Shown here: piece after piece, positions 649-9,368 of the stretch | Position numbering within the stretch: the first letter of the stretch is position 1 | Layout of the letters: each line of letters opens with the position of its first letter | NCBI GenBank assembly: GCA_022560555.1 | Contig: JADFSZ010000056.1 | Coordinates: 1 to 9,368, forward strand | Reading direction: 5' to 3' | Source: JADFSZ01 sp022560555 [NCBI: PVC group bacterium] | GTDB lineage: Bacteria; GCA-001730085; JADFSZ01 | Length of the DNA stretch: 9,368 nucleotides | Notes under the pieces: generated by a model | What the model was told of the DNA's origin: nothing | Database searches by the model: none | What the model saw: the letters and a program-made list of their open reading frames with translations, nothing else | Position numbers and translations under genes: made by a program

Positions 649-664
649 TTGTCCATGTGGATAA
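649..664 (-). promoter_or_regulatory. DnaA box beside rpmH
   Basis: TGTGGATAA at 656-664 is the perfect 9-mer DnaA box TTATCCACA on the minus strand. It overlaps an imperfect mirror copy, TTGTCCATG (649-657), so the 16 bp form a near-palindrome. A perfect 9-mer is expected about 0.07 times by chance on both strands of a window this size. Confidence 0.5.
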
Positions 665-785
665 TTCCAAAAAATCGCTCTTTCTTCCGTCGAGAAGGAA
701 AACGTTATATCATATATCTAGCTCATAAATAATGAGTTATGGTTTATTTAAACTTTTAGTTTGCGCTTTTTTGATCGCTTTTGCC

Positions 786-805
786 TGTTGATAAAGTGTT
801 GATAA
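786..805 (-). promoter_or_regulatory. Tandem near-consensus DnaA boxes
   Basis: TGTTGATAA occurs at 786-794 and again at 797-805. Each differs from the perfect reverse DnaA box by one base (TTATCAACA against TTATCCACA). The two copies are 11 bp apart, about one helical turn, and face the same way, as expected for cooperative protein binding. They lie about 120 bp from the perfect box at 656-664. Confidence 0.4.
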
Positions 806-4415: not shown

Positions 4416-4427
4416 AGTTTTTTCGTT

Positions 4428-4479
4428 AAAAAAGGGTTTTCTCTGAAAAAGGGGCTTTCCCTGAAAAAGGGTTTTCCCT
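4428..4479. repeat. Three-copy 17-18 bp tandem repeat
   Basis: Three adjacent degenerate units lie just after the FecR-domain gene: 4428-4444, 4445-4462 and 4463-4479. Each has the pattern A5-6, G3-4, (C)T3-4, then CCCT or CTCT. Each contains a small mirror, AGGG-TTTT-CCCT, so either strand can form serial short hairpins. On the minus strand each AGGGAAAACCCT ends in a T-run like a miniature terminator. It may help end the pckG-FecR transcript or insulate the tig promoter that follows. No CRISPR character: the units are too short and there are no spacers. Confidence 0.7.
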
Positions 4480-4488
4480 GATCCCCTA

Positions 4489-5886: not shown

Positions 5887-5999
5887 TCAGTAAATGGTAA
5901 TTCGTAAATTGTAATTGGTCTACATGCTTTGTTTTTCTGCTATTTACAAGTTGCCCTTTACAGCTTTTAGCGATTTACCATTTACCAATAACCAATTAC
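5862..5999. repeat. Phased GTAAnnn heptamer array with inverted arms
   Basis: From 5869 to 5917, seven consecutive 7-bp units all begin GTAA: GTAAAGG, GTAAAGT, GTAATCA, GTAAATG, GTAATTC, GTAAATT, GTAATTG. The first two and a half units are tig coding sequence, and the tig stop is inside unit 3. On the minus strand, 5999-5972 holds four more units in phase: GTAATTG, GTTATTG, GTAAATG, GTAAATC. A perfect 15-bp inverted repeat, AAAAGCTGTAAAGGG, is at 5862-5876 and (complement) 5954-5968, so the tig-clpP mRNA could fold with a loop of about 77 nt. GTAAATA (5947-5941, minus) extends the pattern. A stabilising stem, a weak terminator or a dispersed repeat family are all possible. Confidence 0.75.
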
Positions 6000-6631: not shown

Positions 6632-7867
6632 ATGAAATGTTCCTTTTGCGGTAAAAGCGAAAAACAGACCCAACGCTTTGTAACGGGCCCTAAAGTCACC
6701 ATTTGCAACGAATGTATTGGTTTGTGCAATATGATTTTGGAAAAGGATGTCAAGAAACAGGCCTTGATGAACAAAGATAGTTTAAAAAAACTGCCCCGGC
6801 CCAAAGAAATTAAGCGCCGCCTTGATGAATACGTAATCGGTCAAGAACAGGCAAAAAAAATACTTTCGGTTGCCGTATACAATCACTATAAAAGGATTTT
6901 TAACGATACCTTCTCGTCCGATGTTGAGATGGAAAAAAGCAATGTCCTGCTTATCGGACCCACGGGATCAGGCAAAACATTGCTCGCAAGGACACTGGCT
7001 AAAATTCTGGATGTCCCCTTTGCTATCTCGGATGCGACAACATTGACCCAAGCGGGATATGTCGGAGAGGACGTTGAAAATATTATTTTGCGTCTTCTTC
7101 AGAACTGCGAGTTTGACGCTCAAAAAGCCTCGAGGGGCATTATTTACATCGATGAGATCGATAAAATCGGACGGACAACGGACAATGTGTCCATCACGCG
7201 CGATGTGTCCGGCGAAGGCGTCCAGCAGGCCCTTTTAAAAATCATCGAAGGAACACTGGCCAATGTGCCTCCTCAGGGCGGTCGTAAGCATCCCCAACAG
7301 CAGTATATTCAGGTGGACACCACGAACATTTTATTTATCTGCGGCGGAACATTCAGCTCTCTTCCTGCTATTATTGAAAGACGCATCGGGAAAAAGCGCT
7401 TAGGATTTGGGGCTCACCAGGACGTGAACGAAAAAAGAAAATTGGGGGAAATATTAAGCCTGGCCGAGCCGGGAGATTTGGTAAAATTCGGGTTGATTCC
7501 GGAATTTGTGGGTCGTCTTCCCGTGCAGGCTCCGTTATGGGGGCTGGAAGACAAGGACCTCGTACGAATTCTGACAGAGCCTAAGAACGCCCTAACCAAA
7601 CAATATCAAAAAAGTTTTGATATCGACGGGATCCAGTTAGAATTCACAAAGGAAGCTCTTCATGTTATAGCTCATGAAGCGAATCTGAAAGAAACGGGAG
7701 CGCGAGGCTTGCGTTCCATCCTTGAAGCTTTGCTGCTTGAGCTCATGTACACAACCCCGTCCCAGGAAACTCTTATTAAAAAAATCATCGTTGATGAGGA
7801 AGCGGCCAAACGAAAAAGTCCTCCTCGTATTGTTAAAGACGCAAAAAAAACCCGGAAAATCGCTTAA
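6632..7867 (+). CDS. clpX: ATP-dependent Clp protease ATPase subunit ClpX
   Basis: ClpX is a hexameric AAA+ unfoldase that recognises tagged substrates and threads them into ClpP. The 411 residues show an N-terminal zinc-binding domain with CX2C...CX2C (C3, C6, C25, C28); Walker A GPTGSGKT (109-116); pore loop GYVG (142-145); Walker B IIYIDEID (170-177); RKH loop (218-220); ClpP-docking tripeptide LGF (257-259), which fits the [LIV]GF pattern though IGF is commoner; arginine finger R295 in EFVGRLP; and sensor-2 GARGLR (356-361). All key residues are present. The GGAGA Shine-Dalgarno (6619-6623) lies inside the end of clpP. The stop overlaps the stop of a convergent gene on the minus strand, with no terminator between them. 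Confidence 0.99.
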
Positions 7868-8410: not shown

Positions 8411-9001
8411 ATGCCTATTACCAAAAGAAAATTCAATAGCTTGAAAGCTTTTACGCTCATTGAGCTTCTTGTTGTCATAGCTATCATCGCTATTCTTGCA
8501 GCCCTGTTATTGCCAGCCCTGCAATCGTCCCGGGAACAGGGCCGGAGGGCAAGTTGTATGAATAATCTCAAACAAATCGGATATGCTTTACTCCTATATG
8601 GAAATGATTGGGAAGGATATTTCCCTCCGGGAGATAATAATGCCAGCCCATGGATCATGAAGTCGTACCACAACCTTGAACCCCTCTTTCTTGAAGGCTA
8701 TATCAGCACCTACGACATCTTGAACTGCCCCAACCAGACGGATACGGGTCATATTGTCGGTCCTCAGTTTAATTACATGGGTTACTCGTACGCGAACGGC
8801 ATTGATACGAATTACAACTATGCTTCTTTGCGGTCTTCCTCTTTTCCAACGCGTGCAATCCTTTGTGACCTTTGCGGTTGGGGTGATGACCCTATAAGCC
8901 ATACGTCTCACGTAAATGTCCTCTATTTGGATGGGTCCGTGCAGAGTCAGCCTATTGGCAAAGTTGGTGGGGACTATGATATACTCGTGTTTGACCGATA
9001 A
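8411..9001 (+). CDS. Type IV prepilin/pseudopilin with H...DG C-terminus
   Basis: The 196-residue protein opens with a short basic leader and a class-III signal: K12, A13, then [18 protein letters not shown] (14-31), with the conserved Glu at mature position 5 (E18). A prepilin peptidase would cut after A13; Ala is an accepted though less common -1 residue. The mature protein continues [22 protein letters not shown], then a soluble head ending in [15 protein letters not shown] (164-178), the H...DG motif of the DUF1559-like prepilins abundant in Planctomycetes, Lentisphaerae and Omnitrophota. Four cysteines (49, 106, 152, 155) could form disulfides. Only ATG 8411 fits: an in-frame TGA lies just upstream at 8378-8380. 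No Shine-Dalgarno is evident. No pilus-assembly gene is adjacent, so it must share a secretion machine encoded elsewhere. Function as structural or minor pseudopilin is inferred. Confidence 0.9.
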
Positions 9002-9016
9002 TATCCGTCCGTAATT

Positions 9017-9048
9017 TTATCCACAATGTATGGACAACCTGTGGATAA
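9017..9048. promoter_or_regulatory. Inverted DnaA box pair 1
   Basis: TTATCCACA (9017-9025, plus) and TGTGGATAA (9040-9048, minus) face each other across 14 bp. Between them, TATGGACAA (9029-9037) reads TTGTCCATA on the minus strand, a degenerate third box. The same TTGTCCAT core is seen beside the rpmH-side box at 649. The pair is directly followed by the GC-rich and AT-rich stretches. Confidence 0.7.
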
Positions 9049-9060
9049 CCAGACCGCGGA

Positions 9061-9130
9061 TTAATTTTTAATTTTTTTCTCTAACTTAAACTGTTTATTG
9101 AAAAGTGTTTACATATAACATAAATAATAC
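9061..9130. other. AT-rich stretch, candidate unwinding element
   Basis: Only 11 of these 70 bases are G or C. The first 18 bases are almost pure T and A. Its position directly after the inverted DnaA boxes and a GC-rich patch is what a DNA unwinding element would show. No clear run of DnaA-trio triplets was seen. A weaker promoter-like pair, TTGAAA (9098-9103) and TAAATA (9121-9126) at 17 bp, overlaps it. Confidence 0.4.
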
Positions 9131-9177
9131 TAATGGGCTATGCAAATTCAGTTGATCGTTAAGGGCTTGAAAATAGG

Positions 9178-9205
9178 TTGAAAAGGTCTTTTTATGTACT
9201 ATAAT
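9178..9205 (+). promoter_or_regulatory. Strong promoter reading out of the window
   Basis: TTGAAA (9178-9183) and a perfect TATAAT (9200-9205) are separated by 16 bp. Transcription starting near 9212 would run rightward through the second DnaA box pair into a gene at or beyond the window edge. Boxes downstream of the start are compatible with repression by DnaA. Confidence 0.65.
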
Positions 9206-9257
9206 GGCCCCTGATATCCTCAATGAGGGTGTTGTAAAAACAAATTTGTTGAAAACC

Positions 9258-9310
9258 TGTGGATAACTGCCCCTGATATACAGGAAATTCTGTGAATCGG
9301 GTTATCCACA
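9258..9310. promoter_or_regulatory. Inverted DnaA box pair 2
   Basis: TGTGGATAA (9258-9266, minus) and TTATCCACA (9302-9310, plus) are arms of a perfect 10-bp inverted repeat (TGTGGATAAC / GTTATCCACA) with a 33-bp loop, pointing away from each other. The left copy shares the longer 14-mer AACCTGTGGATAAC (9254-9267) with pair 1 (9036-9049), so the two sites match well beyond the 9-bp box. Confidence 0.7.
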
Positions 9311-9335
9311 TAAACTCAGATAGGGCACAACACGG

Positions 9336-9368
9336 ATGACTTTTAAAAAAAGATTCATGCACCTACTT
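9336..9368 (+). CDS. Possible start of the next gene, cut by window edge
   Basis: ATG at 9336 opens an 11-codon frame, MTFKKRFMHLL, that runs out of the window. It lies about 125 nt after the predicted transcription start and 25 bp after the last DnaA box. There is no clear Shine-Dalgarno, and the residues do not identify a family. Position makes dnaA the leading guess, but the true start may be further right; no symbol is given. Confidence 0.22.
   Translation, partial: MTFKKRFMHLL

Follow-up and report, generated by a model that had tools for sequence, protein, structure and literature searches.

A DnaA-box cluster at a contig end, probably upstream of dnaA, in a PVC group bacterium

The right end of the window, which is the whole 9,368-bp stretch of DNA that was analysed, carries a cluster of four perfect DnaA boxes. 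The region containing them, 9002–9335, is probably a DnaA-controlled region upstream of dnaA that forms the left edge of oriC, with dnaA itself falling in a gap of the assembly. The observations that led to this assignment were the boxes, their uniqueness in the assembly, the end of the contig, the genes that were not found, the side and direction of the dnaA block in one relative, and a negative skew at 4-fold sites. The cluster is a well-known kind of element, seen here in an under-sampled lineage.

The box cluster and its contig

Pattern matching recovered the four perfect TTATCCACA boxes in 294 bp that a preliminary description of this DNA had reported, arranged as it had stated in two inverted pairs of opposite polarity, the first inward and the second outward (Table 1). 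The GC patch and the 84% AT stretch that it had described were also present. A further box, with two mismatches, was located at 9247 near the perfect box at 9258. The boxes at 9040 and 9258 are both taken in by a 25-base direct repeat whose copies are 84% alike, and a pair of inverted arms at 9040–9053 and 9297–9310 is 93% complementary. The promoter-like site has TTGAAA at 9178, a 16-base spacer and a TATAAT ending at 9205, giving 11 of 12 consensus matches; it reads rightward and is flanked on both sides by perfect boxes. The promoter sequence is there as described, but promoter-like sites at the looser threshold of the scan are expected by chance, one being found in 8900–9368 compared with 1.9 ± 1.4 in 50 shuffles.

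Table 1. Positions of the DnaA boxes and other features in the window.
Feature	Position	Strand	Basis or remark
rnpA (RNase P protein), cut by contig start	1..246	-	
rpmH (ribosomal protein L34), 45 aa	325..463	-	PF00468, E 3.1e-21
Weaker group of boxes next to rpmH: one perfect at 656(-) and two with one mismatch, TTATCAACA, at 786(-) and 797(-), 11 bp apart	656..805	-	pattern match
Perfect DnaA box TTATCCACA (box 1)	9017..9025	+	pattern match
Perfect DnaA box (box 2)	9040..9048	-	pairs with box 1 (inverted, inward; spacing 14 bp)
Short GC-rich patch, ccagaccgcgg	about 9049..9059		read directly
84% AT stretch	9061..9130		composition
Sigma70-like promoter, TTGAAA-16-TATAAT, toward right end	9178..9205	+	consensus match only
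Perfect DnaA box (box 3), downstream of promoter	9258..9266	-	pattern match
Perfect DnaA box (box 4)	9302..9310	+	pairs with box 3 (inverted, outward; spacing 35 bp)
ORF start MTFKKRFMHLL..., cut after 11 residues by contig end	9336..9368	+	putative dnaA

Clustering of DnaA boxes above chance is a feature of DnaA-dependent oriC and was observed at 9017–9310, where four boxes lie in 294 bp. Perfect boxes were counted in 400 order-2 Markov simulations of the window (9368 bp), which gave a mean of 0.0875 boxes per 9368 bp, so that the earlier estimate of about 0.07 was about right, and a maximum of 2; four boxes in 294 bp were obtained in 0 of the 400 simulations. Thirty perfect boxes were listed for the 1.66 Mb assembly, five of them in the window contig, and outside the cluster no two of the 30 were less than 300 bp apart. 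The preliminary description had proposed looking for similar clusters elsewhere in the genome, and none was seen among these 30 boxes. Judged by perfect boxes, the readable assembly contains no second cluster.

The window is one entire contig of a 222-contig assembly that is 91.5% complete. At its left end rnpA and rpmH read leftward, followed by rightward genes for a metallo-beta-lactamase-fold protein, PEP carboxykinase (pckA), a FecR-domain protein, tig, clpP and clpX. After clpX there is a leftward VanZ-like gene, a rightward DUF1559 pilin-like gene, the box cluster and the ORF start at 9336. The contig ends 33 bases from the ATG of this ORF. A weaker box group, absent from the preliminary description, sits in the 0.5-kb spacer between rpmH and the metallo-beta-lactamase-fold gene. 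Scans of the window for Rfam families (at the gathering threshold) and for tRNAs were both empty. Three similar 26-nt units with 17–18 nt spacing, 73–85% identical to the reference unit, were observed at 4421–4481 between the FecR-domain gene and tig, and the tig-clpP spacer contains at 5890–5985 an imperfect inverted repeat with 15-nt arms that are 93% complementary and 66 nt apart, perhaps a small mobile or REP-like element.

The first 350 bp of the window overlap a second contig, C180, at 92% identity. C180 carries yidC and rnpA in the leftward direction and, because of this gene content and the overlap, is the likely left neighbour of the window, perhaps from a second strain; the differences within the 350 bp indicate that the bin contains more than one strain or that the assembly is in error here. 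The rnpA frame of C180 is broken near a poly-T tract. At the right end of the window no second contig overlapped, and apart from the window itself only two short matches of 32 and 16 bp were obtained.

The dnaA block of a relative and the strand skew

Family searches of the assembly gave no match for the DnaA AAA domain (PF00308), dnaN (PF00712), gyrB (PF00204) or gyrA (PF00521), as would be expected of one lost piece. Parts of the assembly read N (3 of the 19 other contigs taken) and genes of the block could lie there, so these genes are missing in the sense that they were not found in readable sequence. The DnaA_C family (PF08299) gave two matches only, below the family cut-off and both in transposase-like genes. 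These were rejected as DnaA, as they are the helix-turn-helix tails of genes resembling REP-associated transposases (named by eye), one on a full gene (L041, contig C102) and the other as a tail only at a contig start (L040, contig C154).

The comparison set contained two genomes of the phylum in all, the second of which (G001) has dnaA, dnaN, gyrB and gyrA contiguous on the rightward strand at 84.7–93.2 kb of contig C107; a leftward rnpA at 69.6 kb lies about 15 kb to their left. Relative to rnpA, the open end of the window matches this block in both side and direction. ORFs of the window of at least 60 aa gave no BLASTP match (E 1e-3) to ORFs in 40 kb of G001 around the block, so the shared synteny is one of side and direction only and the genes between rnpA and the boxes differ. 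In both loci a stretch of negative 4-fold skew ends in intergenic DNA that carries boxes; the window has four perfect boxes upstream, whereas in G001 one precedes dnaA and two occupy the spacer between dnaA and dnaN. On this comparison the next gene, at or just after 9336, is probably dnaA, although the 11 residues of the ORF start have little beyond MTF in common with G001 DnaA. A second, divergent DnaA-domain protein is also encoded by G001 (L133, G001:C90, E 2.7e-34). Closer relatives were sought with the trigger factor protein, which returned 52 loci at 23–29% identity, mostly from Oscillospiraceae or other Clostridia, and these were of no use for synteny.

The skew at 4-fold sites was negative in all seven rightward genes of the window (-0.028 to -0.25), with a pooled value of -0.123 ± 0.042, and was -0.189 for the rightward genes of C180. 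Across the 18 contigs measured, C21 and C55 on their first 20 kb only, the rightward-gene value was positive in six (+0.046 to +0.112) and negative in eight, consisting of the window, C180 and six others; the seven besides the window ranged from -0.054 to -0.292. The remaining four contigs have leftward genes only and were near zero (-0.024 to +0.017), so the split into leading and lagging values is not clean, and the value of the window could be biased by the codon usage of highly expressed genes. Taking into account the sampling error, the near-zero group and this possible bias, the 4-fold evidence is not decisive. Since the window and C180 are both negative by this measure, the replication fork most likely moves leftward through them from an origin at or beyond 9002, and the 4-fold skew thus hints at an origin located at the right end of the window or past it.

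Over the final 8.6 kb of C180 the plain cumulative GC skew declines to about -132; in the window it climbs from a minimum at position 53 to a maximum of +93 at 7707, the overall GC skew of the window being +0.016. At face value this places the minimum at the rnpA/rpmH end. The direction of the genes switches near the same point, and because plain skew follows gene direction more weight was given to the 4-fold sites. A skew minimum far from the cluster had been named beforehand as an observation that would speak against an origin there; the 4-fold sites point to the right end, where the cluster lies, whereas the plain cumulative skew turns near the left. In the 102-kb contig of G001 the cumulative GC-skew minimum is at 87,062, within the dnaA block at dnaA-dnaN. 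The 4-fold skew in this genome is -0.37 over 72–82 kb and -0.39 in dnaA, and from dnaN onward is +0.15 for rightward and +0.41 for leftward genes.

Box pairs, DnaA-trios and alternative readings

The pattern TTATCCACA-N0..30-TGTGGATAA was searched in 192 genomes and the inverted pair was present in 24, the source genome included. The pair was calibrated on one locus in each of the 23 other genomes, four of which have a second pair elsewhere, by searching about 1.5 kb around the pair (3 kb in all; one locus was shorter) with DnaA from five loci, two of which were the same G001 protein, and one DnaN. In 10 of the 23 genomes dnaA was no more than about 1.5 kb from the pair, which was upstream in eight of these and at the downstream end of dnaA in two; the pair was near dnaN alone in two further genomes and near neither gene in 11. 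At least four boxes in 300 bp were found at four loci among the 23 genomes, three of them beside dnaA or dnaN and the fourth (L142) preceding an rRNA methyltransferase-like gene (named by eye). Among the 30 best-scoring dnaA loci of other genomes, two had at least four perfect boxes in 300 bp. The inverted pair is therefore a useful but not decisive marker of dnaA or the origin. The 11 genomes with a pair near neither gene, together with L142, would fit a cluster that controls another DnaA-regulated gene or titrates DnaA, with dnaA and oriC elsewhere. This is distinctly unlikely for the window, as the unfound dnaA-dnaN-gyrB-gyrA genes, the side of the block relative to rnpA in G001 and the 4-fold skew all point to the cluster.

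DnaA-trios sit 3' of their box. Within 8990–9368, seven boxes having no more than two mismatches were scanned using the loosest trio rule, the first scoring step of the published method, in which at least three trio units lie within 16 bp of the box (excerpted text of PMC8287927). No run of three trios within 16 bp was present at five of the seven; the other two, the perfect box at 9258 and the one with two mismatches at 9247, share a minimal run, TTG-TTT-TTA. In random DNA of the same composition 36% of trials per box produced a run like this, and the run in the window is at chance level. The box at 9040(-), beside the GC patch, has the 3' side of its TTATCCACA facing left, away from the AT-rich DNA. 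The earlier suggestion that the order of boxes, GC patch and AT-rich DNA matches a bacterial unwinding region is poorly supported by a box that faces away and a single trio run of this quality. The best-scoring trio run in G001, obtained from 10 kb using boxes with at most one mismatch, consists of nine NTN units with a spacer of 14 after the box at 86,232, in the dnaA-dnaN spacer. The missing dnaA-dnaN spacer is therefore a more promising place to look for the unwinding element of the source genome. Consensus boxes near AT-rich DNA and a minimal, chance-level trio-like run beside the box at 9258 give the region a likeness to B. subtilis incC and the basal unwinding system (BUS), which differ from it in that the window is without convincing DnaA-trios and its box next to the GC patch has the opposite orientation. 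The B. subtilis incC was inactive once box 6 or boxes 6/7 had been reversed (excerpted text of PMC6669920).

On another reading the cluster is a complete oriC, in which DnaA on the two pairs would melt AT-rich DNA inside the region, at 9061–9130 or to the left of 9258. The box pairs do surround the 84% AT stretch, the minimal trio run adjoins the boxes at 9247 and 9258, and the 4-fold skew places the origin at or to the right of the cluster. A clear trio element is also not universal, with 15% of origins lacking one and E. coli scoring weakly (excerpted text of PMC8287927). A complete oriC is nevertheless unlikely, given the frequency of such a trio run in random DNA, the box beside the GC patch that points away from the AT-rich stretch, and the G001 skew, which flips between dnaA and dnaN and not upstream of dnaA.

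The origin could instead be the box group in 464–981 beside rpmH, with the right-hand cluster being secondary. The position of rpmH-rnpA adjacent to oriC is a classical arrangement, the gene direction switches there, one perfect and two near-perfect boxes lie at 656–805, and the plain cumulative skew over C180 and the window turns nearby. The rpmH region was held to be very unlikely as the main origin on the basis of the 4-fold skew, although plain skew favours it. The rightward-gene 4-fold values are negative on both sides of rpmH, in C180 and in the window, so the turn in plain skew may only follow gene direction, and in G001 gene direction also switches, at about 71 kb, yet the skew minimum is at 87 kb. 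A widely split origin, in which the 656–805 group and the 9017–9310 cluster act jointly on an unwinding site near dnaA although separated by more than 8 kb that contains pckA, tig and clpPX, is extremely improbable.

Proposed control of dnaA and significance

In the preferred reading of the cluster as the region upstream of dnaA, the identity of the next gene, DnaA binding, repression and origin function are inferred. The dnaA gene would start at or just after 9336, being absent from the readable assembly along with dnaN, gyrB and gyrA. Most likely, DnaA would occupy both the inward (9017/9040) and the outward (9258/9302) pair and repress the rightward promoter. The transcript from this promoter would pass the boxes at 9258 and 9302 ahead of the ATG, and with the outward pair placed between promoter and gene start, such binding could let DnaA repress transcription of its own gene. 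The 25-base direct repeat and the inverted arms would suit bridging or looping by DnaA between the pairs. The cluster may also feed DnaA into the origin, with unwinding taking place nearby rather than in the cluster, as is suggested by the flip of the G001 skew between dnaA and dnaN.

Both origin function and DnaA autoregulation had been put forward in the preliminary description. The unique cluster and the 4-fold skew are consistent with an origin on this side of the contig, the proposed unwinding order is poorly supported, and autoregulation is plausible because the next gene is probably dnaA. The location of dnaA/dnaN next to oriC is common but not universal, and known box clusters upstream of dnaA serve in dnaA promoter autoregulation or form the upstream half of a bipartite oriC, for example in B. 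subtilis. Similar to these known clusters, the window has several consensus boxes around a promoter-like site that reads toward the putative dnaA; it differs from them in that dnaA itself is not in the assembly and in that the four perfect boxes form two inverted pairs of opposite polarity. DnaA is reported to regulate its own gene directly in E. coli, B. subtilis and others, but such autoregulation was not observed in P. putida despite 12 boxes (excerpted text of PMC8203912).

The order of boxes, GC patch and AT-rich DNA should not on its own be read as an unwinding module. An assembly gap, rather than gene loss, is a simple reason for the unfound dnaA, dnaN, gyrB and gyrA, and the cluster indicates on which side of the chromosome the origin probably lies, for a phylum with two genomes in the set.
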